DNA of 27,468 nucleotides, taken from a virus. The position numbers and the translations under genes were made by a program. Under the pieces are notes generated by a model. The model did not search any database. It was not told where the DNA came from and worked only from the letters and a program-made list of their open reading frames with translations. Where the stretch lies: the IMG/VR virus record IMGVR_UViG_3300042484_001988, positions 1-27,468 of that record; one strand, 5' to 3'. Positions 8,494 through 27,468 of the stretch are shown here, piece by piece; position 1 is the first letter of the stretch; the number at the start of each line of letters is the position of its first letter.

Positions 8494-8535
8494 AGGGGCC
8501 CCCAGTCTGAAGAGTAGCACGGGTGGTCATACCGA

Positions 8536-9078
8536 TCAACCCCCTGGCTTTGGCTTGGTGGCCCGGACCTTGCGCACCTTACGCGGCTGCGGGATCTCCC
8601 GGGTCGCGATGAAGGCGGCGCCGAGGATGGCCTCGAGCTTGGCGTTCGCACCGGCGTGCTGACCGCTCTCGAGGTTCTGCTGAAGACCGACGCGGCTTGC
8701 CGGAGTGAGGCCGAGCTCGCGAGCCCAGGCGCGCATCTGCTCGCCCTGCTGCTTCATCACGATCGCGGCAGGATTGCGGACGAGATCGCCGTTGCGCCCC
8801 TTGATGAGCGGACCACCGCGAGCGACCAGGGCGGTGGCCTTGCGCCAGGCGGCAGCCGACTCCGCGTAGGCGCGAAGGCCCTCGAGGTCGACGGCGGTGA
8901 TGACACCCGTGTGGCCGATTGCGGCAGCAGTCTCGACCCAGATGATCCGGGCGTCGTCGCTAATGTCGTCGGGCGGCGTGAGGTGGGCCGGTGCCGGCAC
9001 TGGCTCCTTCTTGTCGATGTGGCCGCCTTGCGCCTTGACGATGGCAGACGGTGTCGGGCGTGGTCCGCGGCGGCCCAT
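8536..9078 (-). CDS. terS: Terminase small subunit, P27 family
   Basis: A 180-residue protein starting MGRRGPRPTPSAIVKAQGG, the characteristic N-terminus of P27-type small terminases. A helical middle region follows (WRKATALVARGGPLIKG, then RNPAAIVMKQQGEQMRAWAR), ending in a basic C-terminus (RKVRKVRATKPKPGG). It would recognise the packaging site and load TerL. Its ATG at 9078 overlaps the TGA of metK by one base (TGATG), so translation is probably coupled to metK. The much longer upstream extension of this reading frame lies inside metK and is shadow. Coupling of a metabolic enzyme to terS is unusual. Confidence 0.9.
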   Translation of the reverse strand: MGRRGPRPTPSAIVKAQGGHIDKKEPVPAPAHLTPPDDISDDARIIWVETAAAIGHTGVITAVDLEGLRAYAESAAAWRKATALVARGGPLIKGRNGDLVRNPAAIVMKQQGEQMRAWARELGLTPASRVGLQQNLESGQHAGANAKLEAILGAAFIATREIPQPRKVRKVRATKPKPGG

Positions 9079-10193
9079 CAGCGGAGATCCTTGACCTTCT
9101 CCCACGGGAGGTGGGAGCGGCCGAAGTGGCCGAAGGTTGCGGTAGGGAGGTAGAGCGGTCGGCGCAGGCCAAGGCGTTCGATGATTGCCGCGGGCCGGAA
9201 GTCGAAGGAGGCGGCAACAATAGCGGCAATCTCTTCGGCGCTCTTGGTGCCGGTGCCGAAGGTGTCGACGTTCACAGCCAAGGGCTGGGCGACGCCGATA
9301 CCATAGCAGAGCGACACTTCGCAGCGCGTAGCCAAACCCGAGGCGACCACGCTCTTGGCCGCTTGCCGGGCGGCGTAGGCGGCCGAGCGGTCTACCTTGG
9401 TGGCGTCCTTGCCGGAGAAGGCTCCGCCTCCGTGGCGGGCCGCTCCCCCGTAGGTGTCCACGATGATCTTGCGGCCAGTAAGACCGGCATCGGCGGCGGG
9501 TCCACCCAAGACAAAGCGGCCGGCCGGATTGAGATGGTAGACGGTATCGCTGCCAAGGAACTGTGGCGGGATGGTGGCGATGGCAAGGCGGCGCAGCTGT
9601 GCGCGGAGGGAATCGAGTTCGACCCACTCCTCGTGTTGCGTGCTGATGACGACCGAAGACACGCCAACCGGGCGCCCATCTTCGTACACGACGCTGACCT
9701 GTGTCTTGCCGTCAGGGCGCAGGCCGCGGATTGTCCCGGTGGTCCGGGCGTTGGTCAACGCAGAGGCAAGGGCGTGGGCAAGGCTGATCGGGAGCGGCAT
9801 CAGCTCAGGGGTCTCGTTGCAAGCATAGCCGAACATGACCCCCTGGTCACCGGCGCCAAGCTCGGCCCCGGCAATACCGGCCGCGATGTCGGGCGACTGC
9901 TGCCGCACAGTGACAAGGATCTCGGCGGTGGCTGGGTCGATCCCCTCGTCTGCCGAACGGTAGCCAGTGGCACGGATGACGCCGCGGGCTACGGCCTCGA
10001 GGTCGACGGTGGCCGTGCTGGTGATCTCGCCGAAGATCCAAACCCGGTTGCCGGACGCGGCCGTCTCGCAGGCGACCCGGGCGGCCGGGTCCTGCGCAAG
10101 GTAGGCGTCGAGAACCGCGTCGCTGATCTGGTCGCACAGTTTGTCGGGGTGTCCGCCCGTGACGCTCTCGCTGGTAAGGATGGTGGTCGTCAC
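9078..10193 (-). CDS. metK: S-adenosylmethionine synthetase (methionine adenosyltransferase)
   Basis: A 371-residue, full-length MetK; bacterial enzymes are about 380-400 residues. It makes S-adenosylmethionine from methionine and ATP in the cytosol. All signature elements are intact: GHPDK at 14-18 with His15 and Asp17, the ATP-binding GAGDQG at 113-118, STQHEEW at 184-190, GRFVLGGP, GLTGRKIIVDTYGG, the phosphate-binding GGGAFSGKD at 255-263 followed by KVDRSAAYAAR, and GHFGR near the end. No frameshift or lost residue is seen, so it should be active. The start is GTG at 10193 after AAGGAGG and overlaps the methyltransferase stop (GTGA). Its stop overlaps terS. The probable role is to supply the methyl donor to the adjacent methyltransferase or to offset SAM depletion; the role is inference. 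Confidence 0.96.
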   Translation of the reverse strand: MTTTILTSESVTGGHPDKLCDQISDAVLDAYLAQDPAARVACETAASGNRVWIFGEITSTATVDLEAVARGVIRATGYRSADEGIDPATAEILVTVRQQSPDIAAGIAGAELGAGDQGVMFGYACNETPELMPLPISLAHALASALTNARTTGTIRGLRPDGKTQVSVVYEDGRPVGVSSVVISTQHEEWVELDSLRAQLRRLAIATIPPQFLGSDTVYHLNPAGRFVLGGPAADAGLTGRKIIVDTYGGAARHGGGAFSGKDATKVDRSAAYAARQAAKSVVASGLATRCEVSLCYGIGVAQPLAVNVDTFGTGTKSAEEIAAIVAASFDFRPAAIIERLGLRRPLYLPTATFGHFGRSHLPWEKVKDLR

Positions 10194-11524
10194 TCTTCGT
10201 CCTCCTTGTTGTAGTGGGCGATCCGGGCCTCGGCGATGTTGGCATACTCCGGGGTCATCTCGATCCCGATATAGTCGAAGCCCTCGAGCACGGCGGCGCA
10301 GGCGGTTGTGCCGGAGCCAAGGAATGGGTCGAGGACAACGCCACCCGGAGGGGTGACCAGTTTGATGAGGTAGCGCATGAGGGCGATCGGCTTGACGGTA
10401 GGGTGGATGTTGGCTGCGCCCCCCGCGTTGCGCTCCTTCTTGCCTGGCTTGGCAACGTAGAAGAAGCGGGAGGGCTGGGCCGTCGTCGAGGCGTCAAGCA
10501 CTGCCGCAGCCTCCTCGTCCCAGAGTGTGTTGGCCGGCCAGCGGCCGGCGTCGTGAGCCTCGCTTGCCGGAATCATCTCGGTGCTTGTGATTCCAACATA
10601 GCCCCGTGTCTTGGGTCGAACTCCGCCGCGCCCTTGGTAGTCGCCTTCAATCCGGCTTGCGTCGATGTTGATCGCCCCGGTCCCGTGGGCCAACACGTTC
10701 TCGGCGACTGTGCCGATCAGCGGCTTGCGGGCAAGGACGATCGGCTCGTGCGAAGGCTTGAGGGCGGTGCCCCAACCCTCCCAGCGCTTGGCATCTTCGG
10801 TCGCCGGCTTGTCGCGCTGCTCCTTGGCATTCAAATCGGCGGCCTCGCCATTGTTCGCCTTCCACTGCTGGGCGGCTGCGGGGCGTGTATGTGCCCCGGT
10901 TACTTCCCGCTCGGCCCACGCTTCGCCCGGCGTGCCCTTGCGGCCGTTGAGCTCGAGGACAGTCTGGTCCATCTCCGTACCGAAGTCGAGGAGGCGCTGG
11001 AGCTCGAGCCACTGGTCCCAAGTGGGGCAGGCAGGCTGGCTGGTGTTGCTCGTCCAATGGCCGGCCATTCCGGCAAACTCGAAGTGGGCGTCGATATCTC
11101 GGTTGCTCTTGCCGACTGCATCCCTGGCCGCCCGGACGAAGGCGGTGACGGCGTAGACGGCCGCGCGGTCGTTGCGGCGCTTGTCCATCGACTTCGACAC
11201 GTCCAGGCTCTTCGGGAACCCCGAGCCATAGATCCACATCAGCGAGTCTCGGATCTCGAAGCCGGCGTCCTCAATCGCTACGGCGATCCGGTGGTAGGTG
11301 CGGGAGCCGCCGAAGGCGAGGAGGTGGCCGCCCGGCTTGAGGACGCGGAGCGCCTCTGCCCAGGTGGCGGGGTCGTAGGAGACGCCGGCGCTGTCCCAGC
11401 TCTTCCCCATGAAGCCGAGCTCATAGGGCGGGTCGGTGACAACGGCGTCGACCGAGTCGGCCGGGAGGCCGCGCATGACCTCGAGGCAGTTGCCACGAAG
11501 GACGACGTTGCGGGGGGCGGTCAC
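10190..11524 (-). CDS. DNA methyltransferase, beta class (N6-adenine or N4-cytosine)
   Basis: A 444-residue methyltransferase. The catalytic motif IV DPPY is at 31-34, and the SAM-binding motif I DPFLGSGTT is at 399-407 near the C-terminus, followed by FDYIGIEMTPEYANIAEARI. This order, catalytic motif first, defines the beta class, as in CcrM-type enzymes. HPTVKPIALMRYLI just before motif I is typical of the N6_N4 methylase family. The large middle part (about residues 90-350) probably holds the target recognition region. DPPY favours N6-adenine but does not exclude N4-cytosine. It starts with GTG overlapping the stop of the ParB-like gene and overlaps metK at its own end, so all three are likely co-translated. 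Confidence 0.93.
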   Translation of the reverse strand: MTAPRNVVLRGNCLEVMRGLPADSVDAVVTDPPYELGFMGKSWDSAGVSYDPATWAEALRVLKPGGHLLAFGGSRTYHRIAVAIEDAGFEIRDSLMWIYGSGFPKSLDVSKSMDKRRNDRAAVYAVTAFVRAARDAVGKSNRDIDAHFEFAGMAGHWTSNTSQPACPTWDQWLELQRLLDFGTEMDQTVLELNGRKGTPGEAWAEREVTGAHTRPAAAQQWKANNGEAADLNAKEQRDKPATEDAKRWEGWGTALKPSHEPIVLARKPLIGTVAENVLAHGTGAINIDASRIEGDYQGRGGVRPKTRGYVGITSTEMIPASEAHDAGRWPANTLWDEEAAAVLDASTTAQPSRFFYVAKPGKKERNAGGAANIHPTVKPIALMRYLIKLVTPPGGVVLDPFLGSGTTACAAVLEGFDYIGIEMTPEYANIAEARIAHYNKEDEE

Positions 11525-12309
11525 TTGTCCGGCTCCGGGTTTGCGAAGGGGTCATCTCCGAGTGCCTCGGCCTGACGCCAGCGCTCGAGCTCAATGATGA
11601 CGACCGCGCGGCGCTTCTCGCCCGGGGCCACGTCGTCGCCGACGATCAGGGCGCGGCCTTGTCCGACGCGGGTCGGGATCGCGGTGAGGAAGCCGTAGAG
11701 GCGCTCAGGGAAGTAGCTCTTGCCGGCCTTCGCTTGGATTGCGTAGGCGTCGGTGTCTACGTCGCGGCCACCATCGTGAGCCCCACCGGTGCGCTCGCCG
11801 TCGAGCTTGTTGGCGAGCTCATTCTCGAAGGCGGCGCCCTTCTCGTTGTTGGTCTTGCCGCGGTTCTCGGCAGTGCCCTCAATGTCGGAGGCGGCCCACC
11901 GGTCGACCTGCTGGAGGAACGTGGCAAGCTCGTCATCGGTCACGGTGACCTGTTCGATCAGCTCGCGCAGGCCGGCGGAGTCGCGCCGGGCAAGGTCACC
12001 GAGTGGATCAATGGAGGCAAGGGCGGCAAGCTCTTCCGCCTCGGTGAGCTCGACGTAGGCGACCGGGACAGTGGGGTCGCCGCGGCCGGCGGCAAGGCTG
12101 ACCCGGAGGTGGCCGTCGACCAGTCGGCCGGTTGTGCGGTTGACGATGACGGGGATGAGCCAGCCGAGCTCGGTGATGGCGCCGTGAACCGCCTCGCGCT
12201 GCTTCTGCGGATGCTTCCGCCAGTTGCGCGGGTTCGGCTCGAGGGTACGCGGATCGGCCTCACCGACCTCGATGATGCGGTTCTTCCAAGCGCTTGGCGT
12301 CTTGCTCAT
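11521..12309 (-). CDS. ParB-like domain fused to a PD-(D/E)XK-like nuclease domain
   Basis: A 262-residue protein with ATG at 12309 after AAGGAGATCGA. Residues about 10-110 are a ParB/Srx-like domain: LEPNPRNWRKHP, then GWLIPVIVNRTTGRLVDGHL with the nucleotide-binding GxxxDGHLR at 61-69. Residues about 150-250 look like a restriction-enzyme-type nuclease fold: Glu162 in AAFENELANKL, Asp183 in GRDVD, and QAK at 192-194 spaced like the E...D...(Q/E)xK metal site of Holliday resolvase-like enzymes. In phages, ParB-like domains often accompany DNA methylases. No ParA is present, so a partition role is unlikely. The ParB call is firm; the nuclease call is motif-based and less certain. Confidence 0.85.
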   Translation of the reverse strand: MSKTPSAWKNRIIEVGEADPRTLEPNPRNWRKHPQKQREAVHGAITELGWLIPVIVNRTTGRLVDGHLRVSLAAGRGDPTVPVAYVELTEAEELAALASIDPLGDLARRDSAGLRELIEQVTVTDDELATFLQQVDRWAASDIEGTAENRGKTNNEKGAAFENELANKLDGERTGGAHDGGRDVDTDAYAIQAKAGKSYFPERLYGFLTAIPTRVGQGRALIVGDDVAPGEKRRAVVIIELERWRQAEALGDDPFANPEPDK

Positions 12310-12413
12310 TCGATCTCCTTCCCCCTGCCTGAGCTGTCACAGGAACAGTCAAACTCGATGTTCGCGTTTCCCCGCCTGCTGTCTGGATTGCGGGCGTATT
12401 TGCCCTCCAACAT
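12306..12413 (-). CDS. Possible 35-residue ORF upstream of the ParB-like gene
   Basis: A short frame with ATG at 12413 after a G-rich purine run (GGGGGGAGGGGGG). It ends in a TGA that overlaps the ATG of the ParB-like gene (ATGA). It encodes a small, charged product starting MLEGKYARNPDS with two Cys near the end. The tight stop-start overlap matches the pattern of the genes downstream, which favours a real leader or small protein, but the length and lack of recognisable features make this weak. A start 7 codons further upstream is possible. Confidence 0.3.
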   Translation of the reverse strand: MLEGKYARNPDSRRGNANIEFDCSCDSSGRGKEIE

Positions 12414-12433
12414 TCCGACCCCCCTCCCCCCTG

Positions 12434-12730
12434 TCATGTGCGGTCCTTCTTCGCGCTGTTGTGAGCACGACATAGGACCATGATCCCGGACGGGTCTGGG
12501 AGTAGTTCGCCGCCCTTGCCGAGCGGCCTGACGTGGTCGGCCGTCAGGTCGGTGGACCAACAGCCGAGGACTGAACACCAAGGCTGGGCCTTGCGTGCGG
12601 CCTGGCTCGTCTTCCGCCAGGCGTGGTTGTACTTGGTCTTGCGACGGGGGCGAATAGGGCGATGGGCCTCGCACCACGATGCCGGGCCGGGCTGCCCGCA
12701 GACGAGGCACGGCTTCTTGAGTCCGGTCAT
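12434..12730 (-). CDS. HNH endonuclease-like protein (98 residues)
   Basis: A compact HNH-type protein. Cys8/Cys11 with Cys20/His23 form a zinc knuckle. A second part has Cys52 and Cys57, then the catalytic-type LTADHVRPLGKGG (Asp65, His66) and MVLCRAHNSAKK (Cys87, His90, Asn91). HNH nucleases cut DNA with a single metal ion. Small phage HNH proteins act in cos cleavage with terminase, or as homing enzymes. Here it lies in the same transcription unit upstream of the ParB-like, methyltransferase and terminase genes, so a packaging role is possible though it is not next to terS. Confidence 0.85.
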   Translation of the reverse strand: MTGLKKPCLVCGQPGPASWCEAHRPIRPRRKTKYNHAWRKTSQAARKAQPWCSVLGCWSTDLTADHVRPLGKGGELLPDPSGIMVLCRAHNSAKKDRT

Positions 12731-12902
12731 CTTGTCCCTCTCTTCCCCGGTTAGTGAACGCCCGCCCCGCCTGAGAGACTGATCCCGAAGGACCGCCCGC
12801 CGGGGGATAGGCGGGTGTCGTCACTCGATCACGCCGGAGGGTGGCGGAGGCGAGAGGCGGGCGTCCGTAGTGGATCGCGCCTGCTCGCCCCCGTGCGCCG
12901 GC
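12731..12902. other. Intergenic gap between the two HNH genes
   Basis: About 170 bases without a supported gene on either strand. It contains several copies of a short GGCGGGCG/CGCCCGCC element that could pair with one another as RNA. The ribosome site of the downstream HNH gene (AGAGAGGGACAAG) lies at its low-coordinate end. No promoter-like hexamer pair is evident. Confidence 0.4.
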
Positions 12903-13373
12903 TCAGGCCACCCGACGGTGCGCCTGGGTGATCGCTGCCTCGCGCTCCGTCTGATGTGGGCAGATCCGGTCTGCCCCCTTCGCGCGGTTGCAGTTAGCGC
13001 AGAGGACCTGATACCGGTCAGGGAACCCCTGCTTGATGATGTCGCGGAGTGATGCGAGAGCTCCGCCCACTTCGCGGCGGTGGGCTGCCCCGTCGCCGTT
13101 GACGTGATCGATCTCAAGGAACTCATACCGGGCCTCGCCGCAGCATGCGCATGCCCAGCCGTAGGCTTCGAGGACCTGGTCCCGGACCCGCCGGTTGTCG
13201 GCGTTCTTATCACGGGAGTGACACGGGCGGCAGCGCAGGCCGTCGCGCTTGCCGCTGCTCCTGAAGTAGTAGTGCTCCTCGGTCTCGGGCTTGTGGATCT
13301 CACAGTCCCGGCACTGGATCATCTCGACGGCCTTGGCCTGGCGGCGCTTGCTGGTCTTGGTCTTACGGTTCAT
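12903..13373 (-). CDS. HNH endonuclease-like protein with N-terminal zinc ribbon (156 residues)
   Basis: Starts at ATG 13373 after AAGGGGATAACC. A basic N-terminus leads to a zinc ribbon, Cys21/Cys24 and Cys48/Cys51 (QCRDCEIHKP, then LRCRPCHSRDKN). The HNH part follows with Cys75/Cys78, LEIDHVNGDGAAH (Asp89, His90, His98) and YQVLCANCNRAKG (Cys125, Cys128, Asn129). This arrangement is common in free-standing phage HNH proteins. It is followed by a 172-base gap and a second, unrelated HNH gene. It may be a homing-type endonuclease or a DNA-processing enzyme; the family is clear, the role is not. Confidence 0.85.
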   Translation of the reverse strand: MNRKTKTSKRRQAKAVEMIQCRDCEIHKPETEEHYYFRSSGKRDGLRCRPCHSRDKNADNRRVRDQVLEAYGWACACCGEARYEFLEIDHVNGDGAAHRREVGGALASLRDIIKQGFPDRYQVLCANCNRAKGADRICPHQTEREAAITQAHRRVA

Positions 13374-13478
13374 GGTTATCCCCTTGTGCTGATGAGGAGC
13401 GGTTGCTCCTCTACCTACGTCGCACTGTTGTGCGATCTGCGCAGTTTTCGGGTGCGGCTCCGCAATACGTCAAGCGAA

Positions 13479-13497
13479 CGGGGCCTGGTCGGCCCCG
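13479..13497 (-). terminator. GC-rich hairpin after the 70-residue gene
   Basis: A perfect 7-base-pair stem (CGGGGCC with GGCCCCG) and a 5-base loop lie 4 bases downstream of the stop codon of the 13502-13714 gene, in the 128-base gap before the zinc-ribbon HNH gene. There is no long U run, so it would be a weak terminator or processing site separating the exported-protein genes from the HNH/ParB block. Confidence 0.4.
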
Positions 13498-13501
13498 ACC
13501 G

Positions 13502-13714
13502 TCAACAGCCGTGCCAGGGGGTGACGAGGGGGGTCTGGCTCTTGAGCGGGGCCGGGATTGGCTCGGGTGCCTCTCGGTAGTTGGCCGGCGCCTGGACCCG
13601 CTCCCACTCGTAGCAGGGCGGAGTCGAGGCCGGCAAGTGCCCGCAGATGGTGCACTCGGTGCGGTCCTGGTCGTGCTCCTCGGCTTCCATCGCCAGCTCC
13701 TTGACGCGGCTCAT
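13502..13714 (-). CDS. Small protein with Cys motif, unknown function
   Basis: A 70-residue protein. Its ATG (13714) overlaps the stop codon of the preceding gene (ATGA), which fixes the start. An acidic N-terminal helix (VKELAMEAEEHDQDRTE) leads to CTICGHLPASTPPC, a CxxC plus a third Cys that could bind zinc or form disulphides. A proline-rich tail follows (APEPIPAPLK). It is coupled to an exported protein but has no signal peptide of its own. I do not recognise the family. Confidence 0.6.
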   Translation of the reverse strand: MSRVKELAMEAEEHDQDRTECTICGHLPASTPPCYEWERVQAPANYREAPEPIPAPLKSQTPLVTPWHGC

Positions 13715-14163
13715 CGGGTCACCTCGTAGCTGTAGGCAAGGGTCACGACCGGCGAGCCGATAGGCTGCCAGACCGTGACGCGAAGCTCGTAGACGTCGCC
13801 CCGCTTGTCGGTGCGTCCGGTGCTGCCGGCGGTGCTGCCGGTGGCGTAGGAGCGGGTCGCTCCGTACACCTTGCGAAGGACGACCTTGACGTCGGCGAGA
13901 CTGATCCCGATCCCGTTCTTCAGGCCGACGGCTCGGACGACGAGGCGGTAGCCCTTCGAGCTGTTGGTCTGGACGACGATGGTCTCGGACGCGGAGCCCC
14001 ACGCGAGTGTTACTCGCGGGATGAGGCCGCTCGTCTTGGAGACCAGGCCGACGGTGACGGTGGTGTCGCTATCCCCCGAGTTGTTGGCGGCCCTAACCAC
14101 GCCGGTCCCCGTTGCGAAGAGGAGAGCGAGCGAGACGATGAGCGCGATGATGATTCGATCCAC
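13711..14163 (-). CDS. Exported protein with signal peptide, unknown function
   Basis: A 150-residue protein with a clear N-terminal signal sequence (IIIALIVSLALLFATGTG, then VVRAANN, a likely cleavage site). The mature part is beta-rich with Thr/Val/Ser and a short Gly/Ser/Thr stretch (GSTAGSTGRTD), and ends LAYSYEVTR. I chose the GTG at 14163, six bases from a G run; an ATG at 14184 with AGGAGGG further upstream is equally possible and only lengthens the N-terminus by seven residues. The 5' end overlaps the RlpA-like gene by at least 70 bases. Secreted to the envelope or outside; function unknown. Confidence 0.65.
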   Translation of the reverse strand: MDRIIIALIVSLALLFATGTGVVRAANNSGDSDTTVTVGLVSKTSGLIPRVTLAWGSASETIVVQTNSSKGYRLVVRAVGLKNGIGISLADVKVVLRKVYGATRSYATGSTAGSTGRTDKRGDVYELRVTVWQPIGSPVVTLAYSYEVTR

Positions 14164-14626
14164 GTGGTACCCCCCAGACTGCATAGGGCCAGCGGCCCTC
14201 CTGGGGGTATCGTACCACGAGGGGGCGGATCGGCGCAACGGTGACCGAGCAGATGCCTCGGCTGAGCGGACCGCAGACGGCGAGGAAGGCGGCGGGGCTG
14301 AGGTCGATGAGCTTCTCTCCCGGCTTGCCCTTGCTACAGCCGCACCAATCCACGACTTGGACCTGGATCCGGGCGCCGGTCCTCCGGTTGGTGACGATGA
14401 GGGGGTAGTGTTCATGGTAGGGGTTGGAGTCTCCGATCATCCGGCGAAGCTCCGGGCCGGCCGCGGCGTAGAACTTGACCGGCGCTCCCCATTCGCTCTC
14501 CCGGGTGTACCAGGCGATCGCGGGGGCTCCGTAGCGGGCGGGGTTGCCGTACCAGCTCGCAACGCCACTGACGTCCGGCTGCGGCCAGACGCTGAGGGCT
14601 GCGGTGAGCAGGATGGGGATCAGCAT
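14093..14626 (-). CDS. RlpA-like double-psi beta-barrel exported protein
   Basis: A 177-residue protein. The hydrophobic N-terminus (MLIPILLTAALSVW) looks like a signal peptide without a lipobox Cys. Next comes SGVASWYG at 20-27, the hallmark opening of RlpA-like domains, then LIVTNRRTGARIQVQVVDWC with the conserved Asp93, and KLIDLSPAAFLAV, matching the RlpA pattern D...IDLS..AA. Four Cys (95, 97, 118, 126) suggest disulphides. RlpA proteins are septal lytic transglycosylases, and related barrels bind cell wall glycans. The last 30 or so residues (beyond VVRYPQEG) run into the next gene and look unstructured. It could act in wall degradation or remodelling; the catalytic role is unproved. 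Confidence 0.75.
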   Translation of the reverse strand: MLIPILLTAALSVWPQPDVSGVASWYGNPARYGAPAIAWYTRESEWGAPVKFYAAAGPELRRMIGDSNPYHEHYPLIVTNRRTGARIQVQVVDWCGCSKGKPGEKLIDLSPAAFLAVCGPLSRGICSVTVAPIRPLVVRYPQEGRWPYAVWGVPRGSNHHRAHRLARSPLRNGDRRG

Positions 14627-14656
14627 AGATGAGGCAGCGCCTCACCTTGGATCGCC

Positions 14657-14869
14657 TTAGCGGAGGGTCTTCCGCCGTTTGACGCCGGTGGCGTCGGTGT
14701 AGATGGGCGGCTTCACCCGAGAAGCGCGGCGGTGCCGGCGAGGCTTAGGGGCCTCCGACCGCAGGGGCTCTCGGGTGAAGCTGTAGCCGGCCTCGTCCAT
14801 CGCCGAGAGGAACGCAAGCGCTCCGAGGCTGAAGACGAGGCCGACGATGACAATGGGGTCGGGGCTCAC
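14657..14869 (-). CDS. Small single-span membrane protein
   Basis: A 70-residue protein starting with GTG that overlaps the preceding stop codon (GTGA). One membrane helix lies near the N-terminus (IVIVGLVFSLGALAFLSAM). A strongly basic tail follows (KPRRHRRASRVK, then GVKRRKTLR). Such topology, a short outside end and a basic inside tail, is common in small phage membrane proteins, including some holins and superinfection exclusion proteins. Nothing more specific is visible. Confidence 0.65.
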   Translation of the reverse strand: MSPDPIVIVGLVFSLGALAFLSAMDEAGYSFTREPLRSEAPKPRRHRRASRVKPPIYTDATGVKRRKTLR

Positions 14870-15048
14870 TTCGCGGCAGCCTTGGCCTGGCGCTTCTGGA
14901 TCTTGCGCAGCTCGGCGTCGGTCGGGTTCAGTTCCGGGTGGCCGTTGACGATTGAGCGGATGAGGGCGCGCTTCACCTTCTCGTTCTCGCCCTTACTGCG
15001 GCCGGTGACGACGATCATGTCCCCGAGGATCTTGTGGGTGTCGGTCAT
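14866..15048 (-). CDS. Small basic protein, first gene of the leftward transcript
   Basis: A 60-residue protein starting MTDTHKILGDMIVVTG after a strong TAAGGAG ribosome site; ATG at 15048. It is helical and highly basic at its end (ELRKIQKRQAKAAAK), so nucleic acid binding is possible. It is the first gene behind a promoter-like sequence with a perfect TTGACA, so it is likely among the earliest expressed genes. No family recognised. Confidence 0.65.
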   Translation of the reverse strand: MTDTHKILGDMIVVTGRSKGENEKVKRALIRSIVNGHPELNPTDAELRKIQKRQAKAAAK

Positions 15049-15092
15049 GGTGTTCTCCTTACTTGTCCGGGCTCTTGTGGTCCGGTCCCCCC

Positions 15093-15120
15093 ATTCGCAC
15101 CGGGTCGTCGATCTTGTCAA
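15093..15120 (-). promoter_or_regulatory. Candidate leftward promoter (sigma70-like)
   Basis: On the minus strand a perfect TTGACA (15120-15115) is followed, after 16 bases, by GCGAAT (15098-15093), a partial match to TATAAT. The first leftward gene starts about 45 bases further on. No other minus-strand promoter of similar quality was noticed, so this may drive most of the genome. Hexamers were judged by eye only. Confidence 0.45.
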
Positions 15121-15234
15121 GAATCGGCCCGGGGGGGTACTCCCCACCACCTCAATGACCGAACCAAGCCCGGCCCTCGAGGTGGTCCGTCCTCGGTCCT
15201 GGTCTCCCTACTTCGCACAGGTTCCCCTCGTGGG

Positions 15235-15329
15235 TTGGTCACTTCCGTGCTCGGCTCACCCATAAAGACATAGTTGCACTCTCTCTTCTGTGTATTAGGG
15301 AGGGGGGTGCAGGGGGGAGGGGTGACCAA
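15235..15329. repeat. Inverted repeat TTGGTCAC / GTGACCAA
   Basis: Two perfect 8-base arms at 15235-15242 and 15322-15329 are separated by about 80 bases that contain the AT-rich patch and the G runs. The spacing is too long for a simple RNA hairpin but suits two operator half-regions or an origin cruciform. An 8-base match in 400 bases can occur by chance, so this is suggestive only. Confidence 0.35.
15298..15322 (+). other. G-quadruplex-forming motif
   Basis: Four G runs of 3, 6, 6 and 4 bases are separated by loops of 1, 4 and 1 bases (A, TGCA, A). This fulfils the usual G3+/N1-7 quadruplex rule on the plus strand. It sits between the AT-rich patch and the rightward operon, in the control region. 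Confidence 0.6.
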
Positions 15330-15375
15330 TCAACTGCGCCGATCAACACCCCGCGGGCTATGGGTGGCACCAAAG

Positions 15376-15404
15376 TTGACACCGGGCGCCGTCTGGTGCG
15401 ACTG
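15376..15404 (+). promoter_or_regulatory. Candidate rightward promoter with perfect -35 and poor -10
   Basis: TTGACA at 15376-15381 is 63 bases upstream of the first rightward ATG. At 17-18 bases spacing only CGACTG/GACTGG is found, a poor -10. If real, it may need an activator or a different sigma factor. Low confidence. Confidence 0.3.
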
Positions 15405-15444
15405 GGGGTACAGCGGCCGAGGTGCCGCAGCAAGGAGATCAACC

Positions 15445-15648
15445 ATGGCCTTCCTCTTCGTCACTCTCGTCTTCCTCTTCGCACTGTTCATGATCGCCGC
15501 CGCGGCTGAGGCAGTCGAGGAGCGCCGCCGCCTTCGCATTCGTGGCGTTCGGATCGCCGAGCCGCGGAAGGTTGTGCGGACCGGCGTCTCGCGGTATCTT
15601 GTATCAATGCCGAGCAAGACTCAGCGGAAGGGAAGGGGGGGTCGATGA
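15445..15648 (+). CDS. Small membrane protein, first gene of the rightward operon
   Basis: A 67-residue protein starting MAFLFVTLVFLFALFMIAAA after AAGGAGATCAACC. One N-terminal membrane helix is followed by an acidic then basic cytoplasmic part (EAVEERRRLRIRG), ending in a basic tail (KTQRKGRGGR). Its TGA overlaps the next ATG (ATGA). It may be a small regulatory or exclusion protein at the membrane; no family recognised. Confidence 0.65.
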   Translation: MAFLFVTLVFLFALFMIAAAAEAVEERRRLRIRGVRIAEPRKVVRTGVSRYLVSMPSKTQRKGRGGR

Positions 15649-15788
15649 TTGTCGGAGTTGAGGGGAAGATGGTGATCATCTCGACCCCGTTCGGAGACGT
15701 AGAGCTCACGCCACTCGAAGCGCACGCTTTGGCGCTCGCGGTGCTGGCCGCAGTCGTGGAGGTAGATCATGCCCCGCTCAGCAACTGA
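15645..15788 (+). CDS. Small protein, 47 residues, unknown function
   Basis: The ATG at 15645 overlaps the upstream stop (ATGA), and the frame ends at TGA 15788, inside the next gene. The product reads MIVGVEGKMVIISTPFGDVE followed by a hydrophobic alanine/valine-rich helix, LTPLEAHALALAVLAAVVEV. A beta hairpin plus one amphipathic helix would fit a small DNA- or protein-binding fold. Support comes from the overlaps with the genes on both sides. Confidence 0.5.
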   Translation: MIVGVEGKMVIISTPFGDVELTPLEAHALALAVLAAVVEVDHAPLSN

Positions 15789-15990
15789 GGTCGAGCGCCT
15801 GTGCCCCGAGTGCGACTCGAAGAGCTACGGCGGGGGATCAACGCCAACCGTGCGCGACGGCTTGGTCTATCGCCGACGCCTCTGCATGGGGCCGAAGTGC
15901 GGGATCGAATGGGTCACGGTCGAGGGAGCTATTCACGAGAACGCCAGGCTGGCTGATGCGCTCTCCTGGTATCACGAGGAGCCGCGCTGA
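15769..15990 (+). CDS. Small zinc-ribbon protein (Ogr/Delta- or NrdR-like pattern)
   Basis: A 73-residue protein. ATG 15769 follows GGAGGTAGATC and overlaps the end of the 47-residue gene by 20 bases. It holds LCPECDSKSYGGGSTP with a CxxC, then VRDGLVYRRRLCMGPKCGIE with a second pair of Cys, and a short helix. This spacing, with the basic RRR before the second pair, resembles the zinc-binding part of Ogr/Delta late gene activators and of NrdR. It could be a transcription factor for the leftward genes, which is attractive because no other regulator is visible, but it could be any small zinc ribbon. Confidence 0.65.
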   Translation: MPRSATEVERLCPECDSKSYGGGSTPTVRDGLVYRRRLCMGPKCGIEWVTVEGAIHENARLADALSWYHEEPR

Positions 15991-16358
15991 TGGGGTGGAT
16001 GGGCAACCCTGCCTTCAAGGACGCTGACGACGAGGGAGCAAAGTGGCTGCGCTCGCATTGGAAGACCGAGACGAAGAACGGCCGGACTGCTCTGTCCTTC
16101 CGCGCCTGGTGCCGCGAGCTTGGGGTGATCACCGCCGGCAACCCATCCGGCTGGGATGACATTCGCCGGGTCTCGATGGTGCCGCTCTCGTCGGTGATGC
16201 AGGTGGTCGGCGACTCGGGTGCGCCTGGTGCCGGACGCGAGCCGGAGATGACGTCAATCCTTCCGGTCGATGGTCCCCGTCGCCGGAAGAGCAAGCGCCG
16301 CCGACGCCGTCAGCTGCCGCCTTCGCTGCGGGTTGACAAGGGCGAGCAGGGGGCATAA
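15990..16358 (+). CDS. Basic protein of unknown function, last gene of the rightward operon
   Basis: A 122-residue protein. Its ATG overlaps the preceding TGA (TGATG). The N-terminal half is mixed and Trp-rich (MGWMGNPAF, KWLRSHWKTE, FRAWCRELGV). The C-terminal half contains a run of arginine and lysine (PRRRKSKRRRRRQLPP) that suggests binding to nucleic acid or a loosely folded tail. It lies before the convergent terminator. I do not recognise a family; a DNA-binding role is inference from charge. Confidence 0.6.
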   Translation: MGWMGNPAFKDADDEGAKWLRSHWKTETKNGRTALSFRAWCRELGVITAGNPSGWDDIRRVSMVPLSSVMQVVGDSGAPGAGREPEMTSILPVDGPRRRKSKRRRRRQLPPSLRVDKGEQGA

Positions 16359-16403
16359 CGTCGGAGCCTCGGTGGTTGTTCATGGGCCGCCGAGCTCCTT
16401 GTG

Positions 16404-16447
16404 AAGAGGCCGGATTCCCCGGAGGGTGGGGGATCCGGCTTCTTCTT
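16404..16447 (+). terminator. Rho-independent terminator between convergent operons
   Basis: A stem formed by AAGAGGCCGGATTCCCC and GGGGATCCGGCTTCTT (one mismatch, one bulge) closes around a short GAGGGTG loop and is followed by a pyrimidine run TTCTTCTTT. It lies 46 bases after the last rightward stop and 130 bases before the last leftward stop. It is best for the rightward operon; on the minus strand the trailing CTCTTC is weaker. Confidence 0.75.
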
Positions 16448-16580
16448 TGCCTGACGGCTCTACGGAGGCCCGCTAAGGGGCGCAGGAGGGCCGGAGAGGC
16501 CGCGGAGGGCTCATTGTGGGTGCTCCCCGAGGGACTTCGGCAGAATGGCCCGTAGGGGCCTTGGCGGGGATTCCGCGCAG

Positions 16581-16778
16581 TTAGATCTGGCGGCGGATCT
16601 TGTGGTCGCGCTTGGCCCAGCCGGTCCCCTTGTAGACGGTGCCGGGGAGGCCGGCGGAGTAGTCGCGACGCAGCTCGCCGCCGCAGTCTTCGTGCACCTT
16701 CGGGTGCTCGGCGTAGATGCTTACGGTGAGCTCGAGGCGGGCGGCGCACTTCTGGCAGGCGAAGTCAAGCATCGGCAT
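16581..16778 (-). CDS. FmdB-type zinc-ribbon protein
   Basis: A 65-residue protein starting MPMLDFACQKCAARLE. Cys8/Cys11, then HEDCGGEL with His29/Cys32, and the tail LPGTVYKGTGWAKRDH match the small FmdB zinc ribbons (usual ending VFKGSGFYKTD). In typical members the second knuckle is CPxC; here His replaces the first Cys, which can still bind zinc. It is the last gene of the long leftward unit, four bases after the metallopeptidase-like gene. FmdB-type ribbons are regulators in some methylotrophs and of unknown role in phages. Confidence 0.8.
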   Translation of the reverse strand: MPMLDFACQKCAARLELTVSIYAEHPKVHEDCGGELRRDYSAGLPGTVYKGTGWAKRDHKIRRQI

Positions 16779-16781
16779 CGG

Positions 16782-17183
16782 TCAGCTCTTCGCGAACTTC
16801 GGCGGGAGGGGAAGGAGTGGAGCCATCAGGCGAGCGAGCTTGTCGGTCGTCCGCTCGTGCGCGCGCTCGAAGGCCGAGTCGAAGATGTCGAAGGCAGCCG
16901 TGCCGAGCGTCTTCTCGAGGTCATCCTTGAGGTTGACCATCGCCGCGAGATGGCAGTGCAGGAGCTCGTGGACGATCACCCGGCGCTGGTCTTCAGCGGC
17001 AAGGGCCCAGAAGCCGTGAGCGATCCGGATGGTGGCCTCGGGCGCCTCGTCGTGGACGAGGATGTCGGCGTAGGTGTCGTCCGGTGCCTGCTCGTCGGTG
17101 ACCTTGATGGTCAGGTCGAGAAGCCCGAGGGTCCCCTGTGCCTCTTCGATGTAGCGGCGAATCTGGGAGATGCGTCGGCTCAT
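16782..17183 (-). CDS. HExxH metallopeptidase-like protein
   Basis: A 133-residue protein. A zincin signature is clear: VIVHELLHCHLAA with His72, Glu73 and His76. A glutamate in FERAHERTTDKLA (Glu106 or Glu110) could be the third metal ligand. The N-terminal part is mixed alpha/beta (DLTIKVTDEQAPDD, then ATIRIAHGFW), as in minimal SprT/WSS-like zincins. It lies between a membrane/coiled-coil protein and a zinc ribbon, after the lysis genes. Substrate unknown: it may process phage or host proteins, or cut wall peptides. It has no signal peptide. Confidence 0.75.
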   Translation of the reverse strand: MSRRISQIRRYIEEAQGTLGLLDLTIKVTDEQAPDDTYADILVHDEAPEATIRIAHGFWALAAEDQRRVIVHELLHCHLAAMVNLKDDLEKTLGTAAFDIFDSAFERAHERTTDKLARLMAPLLPLPPKFAKS

Positions 17184-17192
17184 GTCCCCTCC

Positions 17193-17600
17193 TTACTTCT
17201 TTGCGGCTGGCTTCCGGGGCCGCCGCGGCTTCTTGAGTACCTGCGCCGCAGCTTCCGCTGCGGGGTCTCGTGTAGTATCGAGCAGATCGAGCGCCGCGTC
17301 AATCCTCCCGGTCAACTCGGACAGGGCGTCGGTCATCTCGAGCACGCTCCGGCGGCTGTCGGCGAGCTCGGTCTCGAGCCGGTCGACGTGGCTGCGGAGC
17401 TCCCCGGTCTCTCGCTCAAGCCGGGCCAGGGCGTCCGTCATGGACGAGCTTAGCACGGCGACCGCTTCGGCGCTACTCTTGAGGGCGTCGCCGTGGGCCT
17501 TGCGGGCAACGGCGCGGCCGGTCAAGAGCGCGGTGACGAGCGCGGCAATGCCGGCGCCGCCGCCGAGCAGCCCGAGGAGGTTGACGATCTCAGGTGACAT
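17193..17600 (-). CDS. Membrane-anchored coiled-coil protein
   Basis: A 135-residue protein. A membrane helix occupies about residues 6-28 (LLGLLGGGAGIAALVTALLT). A long heptad-rich coiled coil follows (about 38-110, e.g. LARLERETGELRSHVDRLET), and then a basic, proline-rich end (KKPRRPRKPAAKK). It overlaps the preceding gene by 11 bases. Its position two genes after the holin suggests a lysis accessory, such as an antiholin or a spanin-like protein, but topology alone cannot decide. Confidence 0.65.
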   Translation of the reverse strand: MSPEIVNLLGLLGGGAGIAALVTALLTGRAVARKAHGDALKSSAEAVAVLSSSMTDALARLERETGELRSHVDRLETELADSRRSVLEMTDALSELTGRIDAALDLLDTTRDPAAEAAAQVLKKPRRPRKPAAKK

Positions 17601-17910
17601 CGTCCGGCGTCTCTGGCTGTGGCGTCGGGGCGTCGGTGAGATAGGCGCCGAGGTCAGCGCCGATTAGGGCGTCAATCTTGGTGCGGCTGCGGCGCTTGAC
17701 CTCGCGGTCGGCAAGCCGGGCCACGCGGGCAAGGGCGGTGAGCTGATCGTTCTGCCACTCCTGGCCCGGGACGATAGCACGCCAAAGCCAGGCCGGGTCG
17801 GGGCGAAGGTCGCCCTCGCCGTCCGGGCCCTGCTTGGTGCGAGTCTCGTCCAGGTGGACAATCAGCTCGACGCCGTCCGCGCCCTGATCGTAGGCCCCGA
17901 TAATCTTCAC
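17590..17910 (-). CDS. Small protein of unknown function between lysis genes
   Basis: A 106-residue protein. I chose GTG at 17910, giving VKIIGAYDQGADGVELIVHL; it lies two bases from the holin stop and after GGAG. The frame is open further upstream, but that part overlaps the holin and is low-complexity shadow. The N-terminal half is beta-type with LDETRTKQGPDGEGDL; the C-terminal half is a basic helix (LARVARLADREVKRRSRTK). It ends in an acidic, proline-rich tail. No family recognised. Confidence 0.6.
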   Translation of the reverse strand: MKIIGAYDQGADGVELIVHLDETRTKQGPDGEGDLRPDPAWLWRAIVPGQEWQNDQLTALARVARLADREVKRRSRTKIDALIGADLGAYLTDAPTPQPETPDDVT

Positions 17911-17911
17911 G

Positions 17912-18325
17912 TTAGGCTCCGGTGCTCTCGACGGTGAAGTCGACAGCCGGGATCGAGTCGGCAAGGACTGGCGTGGCTGCCTCGGCGTCCACGAAGATGC
18001 CCTTCTCGATCCAGACCGACGCCTCGATTGCCGCGGTGACGGCCTCCTCGTCGAGGCGGATGCCCTTGGCGAGGAGCGCGTTGGTGACGACTGCCCTCGC
18101 TGCGGCGAGCTTCGTCTGCCCGTCGCGGCCCTTGAGTGCCTGCTCTGATGCTCGAACCGCGGCCGATGCGAGCTGGCGAAGCAGGGCGTAATGTTCGGCG
18201 GTTGTGCGCGCCTTGATGTAGGTGACGACGGTGCGGGCTACCCAGCCGAGGGCGCCGATGGCAACGGGGACAAGCGCAATGACCAGTGCCGTGGTCAAAT
18301 CGCCGAGGAACGTGTTGGCTTCCAT
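17912..18325 (-). CDS. Holin, LLH family-like
   Basis: A 137-residue protein. One N-terminal membrane helix (LTTALVIALVPVAIGALGWV) is followed by a helical tail: ASAAVRASEQALKGRDGQTK, then NALLAKGIRLDEEAVTAAIE. This architecture, a single span followed by an AVRAxEQ...KG..LDE..V..AIEA pattern, is that of LLH-type phage holins. Holins time lysis by opening the inner membrane. It lies ten bases after the C39 peptidase gene, as expected for a lysis cassette. Confidence 0.82.
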   Translation of the reverse strand: MEANTFLGDLTTALVIALVPVAIGALGWVARTVVTYIKARTTAEHYALLRQLASAAVRASEQALKGRDGQTKLAAARAVVTNALLAKGIRLDEEAVTAAIEASVWIEKGIFVDAEAATPVLADSIPAVDFTVESTGA

Positions 18326-18335
18326 TGTGATCTCC

Positions 18336-19130
18336 TTACTTCGCGACGCGGCCGAACCGCCGGTCGATGATGCGGCGAACGGCCGCGACGATTGGCCGGA
18401 GGACCGGCTTGGCTGGCGCCGGGGTGACCGGTGCCGGGCTGATTGGCGCAGGGGTCGGAGCGACCGGCGCCGGGACTGGAACGAGCGGCTCCTTCCCCTT
18501 GGGGGGGACGTCTGGCGCGGGCTGCTTCTTCTTCGGGGCCGTGGTGATGATCACGCAGGTGCTCTGCTTGGCGCGACCCTTCCCCGAGGCCATGGCCTCG
18601 AAGTCTGACAGGGAGATGAGGAAGGCTTCCGCCTCCTTACCCTTGCCGGTCATCGTTGGGTCGGCGTACTGCCAGCCGCAGTCGTCGCAGTAGACGACCG
18701 TGACGTAGTGGCCGAAGCCCTTGGCAACCTTCTTGGGGTCCTTCTTGGTCCAGTAGGCGATCCACTTACGGGTCCAGGCGGACATCTTCCCGACCGGGTA
18801 GCCCTTCGGCCCCTGGACGTTGAGGATGATCGCGGCGCCGAGCTGGGCGGCTCGGACGACCTGCTCGAAGCTCTTCGGCCAGGTCCCCTTGGCGCCGTGG
18901 CGGGCGGCCATCTTAATGTTCTCGCCGAAGGTAGCGCCGGCGGAGCTGACCCCCTGCTTGTCCTGACGGCCGACGACCTTGGTGTACTCGGCCACGAAGG
19001 CGGTAACGTCGAGGTCCTCCCCGGTGACCCAGCCGATGGCGGCCGCAGTTGCAGCCGGGCCGCAGTCGTCGAGGATACCCTGCTGCCGGGCTTCCTTGTC
19101 GTGGATCTGACTCTTGACCTTCAGGCGCAT
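18336..19130 (-). CDS. Endolysin, C39-like cysteine peptidase
   Basis: A 264-residue protein; ATG 19130 follows AGGAGGGG. Residues about 10-200 form a C39-like papain-fold peptidase: catalytic Cys23 in LDDCGPAATAAA, His141 in GFGHYVTVVY and Asp157 in YADPTM. Similar C39 domains form the peptidase part of many mycobacteriophage and actinophage lysins, where they cut wall peptide bridges. Residues 201-245 are a proline/alanine-rich linker, ending in a short basic helix (VAAVRRIIDRRFGRVAK) rather than a known wall-binding domain. No signal peptide, so it depends on the holin next door. It is separated from the tail genes by a hairpin. A non-lytic processing peptidase is the alternative. Confidence 0.85.
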   Translation of the reverse strand: MRLKVKSQIHDKEARQQGILDDCGPAATAAAIGWVTGEDLDVTAFVAEYTKVVGRQDKQGVSSAGATFGENIKMAARHGAKGTWPKSFEQVVRAAQLGAAIILNVQGPKGYPVGKMSAWTRKWIAYWTKKDPKKVAKGFGHYVTVVYCDDCGWQYADPTMTGKGKEAEAFLISLSDFEAMASGKGRAKQSTCVIITTAPKKKQPAPDVPPKGKEPLVPVPAPVAPTPAPISPAPVTPAPAKPVLRPIVAAVRRIIDRRFGRVAK

Positions 19131-27292: not shown

Positions 27293-27468
27293 GGGTCCAC
27301 CGCGAACGCCTTGCGCGACCAGCCTTCGGAGAGGCCGGCCAAGGCGTCGGGTGCGACGTCGAGCATGCTTGCGGCAAGCTCGCCGGTCGTGACGTCTGGG
27401 AAGTTGTGGGACACGACGATGCGGTCCATGACTGCGGCGAGCTTGAGGATCGCCGAGCTGTCGTCGTC
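27286..27468 (-). CDS. Tail assembly chaperone, upstream frame (3' part, same gene as 1-282)
   Basis: This is the continuation of the gene that begins at 282 and leaves the window at base 1. The segment includes the duplicated 138 bases (27331-27468) and the unique end, which reads SEGWSRKAFAVDPS and stops at TAA 27288-27286. The single difference between the copies (base 12 versus 27342) changes a leucine codon CTG to TTG, so it is silent in this frame. Confidence 0.8.
   Translation of the reverse strand, partial: DDDSSAILKLAAVMDRIVVSHNFPDVTTGELAASMLDVAPDALAGLSEGWSRKAFAVDPS
27289..27297 (-). promoter_or_regulatory. Candidate -1 ribosomal frameshift site
   Basis: On the mRNA the last codons before the stop are GAC CCC TCC TAA. 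Four consecutive C bases let the tRNA on CCC re-pair perfectly one base back, and the next base pair of codons then enters the downstream frame. It lacks the classical X-XXY-YYZ heptamer, so a slip in the P site near the UAA is inferred. No downstream structure was computed. Confidence 0.5.
27331..27468. repeat. Terminal direct repeat, right copy (circular overlap)
   Basis: Second copy of the 138-base overlap described at 1-138. The mismatch at 27342 is silent in the tail chaperone frame. Confidence 0.9.

Follow-up and report, generated by a model that had tools for sequence, protein, structure and literature searches.

A probable divergent control region and its unusual twin elements in a small tailed phage genome

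Described systems and the phage genome

Actinobacterial sigma-A/HrdB promoters combine a TTGAC-type -35 box with a TANNNT -10 box and, in the available part of a study of Streptomyces coelicolor, a TANNNT -10 stands at 80.4% of 3,570 mapped starts (PMC4895711). The locus described here is like these promoters in having a perfect outward TTGACA on both sides, with ordinary spacing to the ATG and ribosome site, but its two copies contain a shared G-rich block and no TANNNT at 16-18 nt. It is also like the Pleft operator of mycobacteriophages L5 and D29 where, according to the accessible part of the source, an asymmetric block overlaps an early-type promoter with a TTGACA-like core (PMC5712189). 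Unlike the stoperators of L5 and D29, the sites found here are confined to one gap and no repressor was recognised. In the window (the whole stretch of 27,468 nt that was analysed), the L5-type consensus GGTGGMTGTCAAG had 17 matches at 3 mismatches, against 12.8 expected, and none better than 3. A further likeness, and a resemblance only, is to mitochondrial conserved sequence block II, a G-run primer site in the part of its description that was available: both have a compact G run beside an AT-rich stretch, but the G run of the window has no demonstrated promoter reading through it and appears not to be conserved in the relative described below.

Among annotated phages, the nearest large terminases belong to phiC31-like Streptomyces phages and to Pontimonas phage phiPsal1, at 36-37% identity. 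Unlike the window, these phages are larger, have annotated replication genes and carry nearly all of their genes on one strand, and the twin motif described below is absent from them. A search of the literature on phiC31 early promoters found nothing. No terminase relatives were found in genome_contigs, and the 13 portal relatives each have at most 30% identity, so that these searches point to no host.

The window, which is classed as a virus record, is a small tailed phage genome. Its proteins include matches to terminase, portal, head protease, major head protein, connector, tape measure, tail fibre and holin, and a ParB-like protein and HNH nucleases are also encoded. An end repeat of 138 nt (1-138 = 27331-27468, with one mismatch at position 12, G vs A) indicates a circular map of ~27.33 kb (about 27,330 bp). 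On the minus strand at 9078-11524, an S-adenosylmethionine synthetase with three Pfam domains above cut-off adjoins a DNA methylase of the N6/N4 type, which looks as though the phage carried its own methyl-donor supply for DNA modification. After the major head gene, at 2884-2955 on the minus strand, an intergenic TTGACA is followed by a GC-rich inverted repeat, GGGGGTCGGGC TTCG GCCCGGCCCCC, which was read by eye; this TTCG-loop hairpin is possibly a terminator or a processing hairpin.

The divergent gap and its twin elements

According to our own gene list, in which several start codons are approximate, the largest non-coding gap of the window lies between ATG 15048 and ATG 15445 (Table 1) and is followed in size by gaps of 222, 172 and 128 nt, which confirms an earlier remark, made in the preliminary description of this DNA, that it is the only gap over 300 bases. 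By the same list, all genes run leftward except those of a short rightward operon at 15445-16358, and the gap is the sole divergence point in the window; the second-largest gap, which begins at 16359 and ends at 16580, is convergent. No DNA similarity of the locus to annotated phages was found, and the comparison with plasmids gave one weak 28-nt match (E 0.3) that was taken as chance. Rfam returned only an sR22 match, under the gathering score and located outside the gap, and the leader RNA folds no better than in shuffles. A search for relatives of the first leftward gene found none.

Table 1. Positions of the features in the divergent gap and of the genes around it
Feature	Position	Strand	Basis
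Divergent intergenic control region, largest non-coding gap, 396 nt	15049..15444	.	sequence and gene list
Left copy of the twin element, TTGACA-N11-CCGGTGCGAATGGGGG, pointing leftward; distance from the start of TTGACA to ATG 15048, 72 nt	15088..15120	-	
Right copy of the twin element, TTGACA-N11-CTGGTGCGACTGGGGG, pointing rightward; distance from the start of TTGACA to ATG 15445, 69 nt	15376..15408	+	
Possible third degenerate core CCTGTGCGAAGTAGGG, 4 mismatches, without TTGACA	15206..15221	-	self-match of 30 nt, 80%, E 0.15
AT-rich core with 56% AT in 50 nt; richest 30-mer at 15268-15297, with 63% AT	15248..15297	.	
G-quadruplex-type G run GGGAGGGGGGTGCAGGGGGGAGGGG, top G4Hunter-type score of the window	15298..15322	+	
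AAGGAG ribosome site of the leftward gene	15055..15060	-	sequence
AAGGAG ribosome site of the rightward gene	15432..15437	+	sequence
First leftward gene, 60 aa, without accepted family match	14866..15048	-	
First rightward gene, 67 aa, hydrophobic N-terminus, no function assigned	15445..15648	+	
Zinc-ribbon protein, 73 aa, weak NrdR-type N-terminal ribbon, candidate regulator	15769..15990	+	Pfam, fold
Last rightward gene, 122 aa, with a conserved counterpart of 44% identity in the relative, no function assigned	15990..16358	+	

The two perfect outward TTGACA boxes that had been noted previously are indeed present, on the minus strand at 15120 and on the plus strand at 15376, with 6/6 positions of the -35 hexamer matched in both. 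Each box stands at the 5' end of a 33-nt element, TTGACA-N11-CYGGTGCGAMTGGGGG, whose two copies diverge and are each followed downstream by an AAGGAG ribosome site. TTGACA occurs 7 times on both strands of the window (3.9 +/- 2.1 in 100 shuffles), and the next best match to the 33-nt element in the window has 7 mismatches. The 16-nt cores of the two copies agree, in register, at 14 of 16 positions. When the two 110-nt flanks were shuffled by mononucleotides, at least 14 identities in this register and place were reached in none of 20,000 shuffles, and in this register anywhere in 1 of 20,000, while the best local match of the core at any offset was equalled in 14 of 2,000 dinucleotide shuffles of the 110-nt flanks. 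A scan of the window with the twin pattern is circular, since the pattern was built from the same two copies, and the flank shuffles are the fair tests; the in-register TTGACA on both sides comes in addition to these core-match statistics. The pairing of the twin elements is well beyond chance.

The 11-nt spacers of the two copies differ freely, with 1 of 11 positions identical when counted by eye, and both ends of the element are kept. When a laxer penalty is applied, the similarity of the two leaders extends from the core to the ribosome site. The degenerate third core is not significant on its own, and the window scan showed no array of block sites outside the gap. We also considered that the twin elements might bound an invertible segment, but rejected this for want of any recombinase match. 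Upstream of the terminase ATG (~8495-8550, minus strand), a promoter-like TTGATC-N17-TACTCT is followed by GACTGGGGG, and the terminase upstream site of the related fragment L001 has TTGACC and the same TACTCTTCAGACTGGGGG as the window. The window contains 3 occurrences of GAMTGGGGG (15400 on the plus strand, 15096 and 8507 on the minus strand), against 0.6 expected.

At 16, 17 and 18 nt downstream of TTGACA, where the hexamers are GCGAMT, CGAMTG and GAMTGG, a TANNNT -10 is absent. When 12000-18500 was scanned for canonical sigma-70 promoters, the sole match was at 17302 and none fell in the gap, and a genome-wide promoter list made at a different cut-off has no site within the gap either. Since neither copy has TANNNT, and with the 80.4% frequency in Streptomyces as the guide, plain sigma-A alone is unlikely to be sufficient at these sites. 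The lack of a canonical -10 suggests that the shared block would be read by another factor.

Three observations support the proposal of a divergent control region: genes diverge nowhere else in the window, the spacing of the paired element to both ATGs is matched, and the one relative that covers the locus has the same layout. We regard 15049-15444 as a real control region of this kind, ordinary except for its unusual pair of elements. That it controls the whole genome, as had also been suggested, is plausible from gene direction. It need not be the only start, because a promoter-like pair also precedes the terminase gene.

A related locus and a candidate regulator

Relatives were sought via the terminase, portal, ParB-like and coiled-coil proteins and the zinc ribbon, and only one other contig covering the locus was found, IMGVR_UViG_3300034108_001812 (L002, the same as L005 and L119). 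The fragments L001, L003, L006 and L009 do not reach the locus, and neither does L084, judged by match position; in the whole record of L007 no comparable gap stood out from a rough ORF list, and there was no zinc-ribbon match. The gap of the relative is 497 nt long, with the same two transcription directions and homologous neighbours, identity to the window being 63% for the zinc ribbon and 46% for an RlpA-like gene (the last rightward gene is given in Table 1). On its rightward side, TTGACA-N16-TATGCT stands 75 nt before the ATG and is like sigma-A/HrdB promoters, with sigma-70-like matches at chance number in the scan of the relative (2 vs 2.3 expected). On its leftward side the only comparable box is a TTGACC at 57 nt, and a clear -10 is lacking.

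The twin block is absent from the control region of the relative and from every other locus compared. Loose matches to the twin motif number 5 in the 1.3 Mb of loci searched, 2 of these lying in the window, and viral_contigs had no match to an exact pattern that was a little shorter. The gap of the relative holds the AT maximum of the contig stretch examined, at 87% over 30 nt (next 73%), and its positions L002:5364-5515 contain a TA run and an 18-nt repeat that is present three times, at spacings of 50 and 54 nt, a better candidate for an origin or operator than anything in the window. The layout and an AT-rich core are thus common to the window and its relative, the block is not, the G run appears not to be, and among the loci compared the twin motif itself has no evolutionary conservation.

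The rightward operon encodes a zinc ribbon with CxxC...CxxxxC spacing, a Cys4 layout. Its predicted fold is of moderate confidence (mean pLDDT 71.6), and in a fold search with this protein PDB ranks 1-12 were all NrdR, with a best E of 0.21 and none at or below 0.001. The Pfam NrdR ribbon matched the window protein at E 0.0059 and 17.0 bits, below the cut-off of 27.2, and the better of the two members (window and relative) at 2.9e-4; one of these two members also had a weak Pfam match to Ogr_Delta (E 0.039). In its Cys4 layout and its top fold match, the protein is like the Ogr/Delta and NrdR zinc-ribbon factors. Unlike NrdR, it stays below cut-off, and no match to the NrdR ATP-cone domain was found in its 73 aa. 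NrdR boxes are AT-rich, unlike the shared block of the window. A literature search on NrdR, phages and zinc ribbons found nothing. The 73-aa protein is possibly a regulator of the twin elements, and we offer it as a lead only. A second small zinc-ribbon protein, Zn_ribbon_8/FmdB-like (E 1.2e-6, below cut-off), lies at 16581-16778 on the minus strand, at the end of the leftward transcription unit.

Replication and competing readings of the region

The preliminary description had further pointed to an AT-rich patch, a four-run G motif and an 8-base inverted repeat enclosing both, and had named the region as a candidate replication origin. The AT maxima of the window at 30, 50 and 100 nt (63%, 56% and 47%), although not the one at 200 nt, all lie in the gap. 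The patch is the AT maximum of the genome, but it is mild and its height is at chance level, 63% AT over 30 nt being reached somewhere in 85 of 100 shuffles. The G run has four runs of at least three G with short loops and is exceptional in score and compactness, its G4Hunter-type score of 2.92 lying above the maximum of 2.84 in 200 whole-window shuffles and being reached in 2 of 1,000 gap shuffles. Such motifs are nevertheless no more frequent in the window than by chance (3 vs 4.0 expected), and the gap of the relative has no comparable top G site. The inverted repeat TTGGTCAC/GTGACCAA (15235-15242 / 15322-15329) does enclose the patch and the G run, but 8-mer inverted repeats in the gap number 3 against 2.1 expected, with at least one in 79% of shuffles, a chance-level and non-significant result.

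GC skew has no sign switch, as 53 of 53 one-kb windows and 26 of 26 two-kb windows are positive. The coding strand of the leftward genes is C-rich at third codon positions (skew -0.335) and, because this bias can explain the sign of the skew, the skew test that had been put forward for the origin is uninformative. The gap contains no iterons and no repeat family with at least three copies, and polymerase, primase, helicase, initiator, integrase and repressor had no accepted match among the proteins scanned. A match to phrog_22681, labelled DNA polymerase, was dropped because it involves a collagen-like tail protein matching through its repeats, and helicase-labelled matches of the terminase and the methylase were dropped as weak (E about 0.04).

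Our preferred reading, which we regard as fairly probable, is that the gap is a divergent transcription control region with two outward promoters made from the same element. Each promoter would consist of a perfect -35 TTGACA and the CYGGTGCGAMTGGGGG block, placed where the -10 box and start site should be; one would drive the short rightward operon and the other the long leftward one, in which most of the genome lies. With TANNNT missing from both copies, initiation would probably depend not on plain sigma-A alone but on a DNA-binding factor, or an RNA polymerase modified in some other way, to read the shared block. Reading of the same block would switch both operons together, and the best candidate for the factor is the zinc-ribbon product of the rightward operon. 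The paired element, its spacing, the divergence, the missing canonical -10 and the same layout in the relative are observed; that the copies are promoters, that they are regulated together and which factor reads them is our inference.

The shared block could also be the operator of a phage repressor lying over weak ordinary promoters, with three sites of which one is degenerate, by analogy with L5 Pleft. The two copies with their degenerate third would suit such an operator, and L5/D29 are known, from the accessible part of PMC5712189, to have asymmetric operators that lie over an early promoter, yet no repressor or integrase was recognised among the scanned proteins, the L5-type stoperator consensus is not enriched, no site array was found elsewhere in the genome and there is no -10 box to cover, and we consider this reading unlikely. 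A recent inverted duplication of the leaders, or a G-rich coincidence, without regulatory role and with the real promoters elsewhere, is quite unlikely in our judgement: a spacer with so few identical positions between two preserved ends is unlike recent duplication or drift, and TTGACA is present in both copies and at a similar distance in the relative. What speaks for duplication or coincidence is the extension of similarity to the ribosome site under the laxer penalty, together with the result of the core-only dinucleotide test and the lack of conservation of the motif in the relative.

That the region is also, or mainly, a replication origin, with an AT-rich unwinding patch beside the G run at which the host replisome would be loaded, seems doubtful. 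It agrees with the position of the AT maxima in the largest non-coding gap, with the far stronger maximum of the relative and with the TA run and spaced 18-nt repeats found there; the window, however, has a patch of chance-level height, a G run apparently not common to the relative, no iterons in its gap, a skew switch nowhere and no replication gene recognised among the scanned proteins. An origin in the gap is thus possible but unsupported. It is highly improbable that transcripts of the divergent region start DNA synthesis in the manner of mitochondrial CSB II, in which case a phage zinc-ribbon factor would read a promoter class with a perfect -35 and, instead of a -10, a dedicated G-rich block, and an RNA:DNA hybrid priming the host replisome would be stabilised by the exceptional G run next to the AT patch.

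Returning to the gap as a divergent transcription control region, if the twin elements are promoters they would form a compact pair under common regulation, each with a complete -35 but lacking a canonical -10, for which a phage-specific activator is conceivable. The region is also an obvious starting point for asking how a phage of 27 kb, in which no replication genes were recognised, replicates its DNA and times the expression of its genes.
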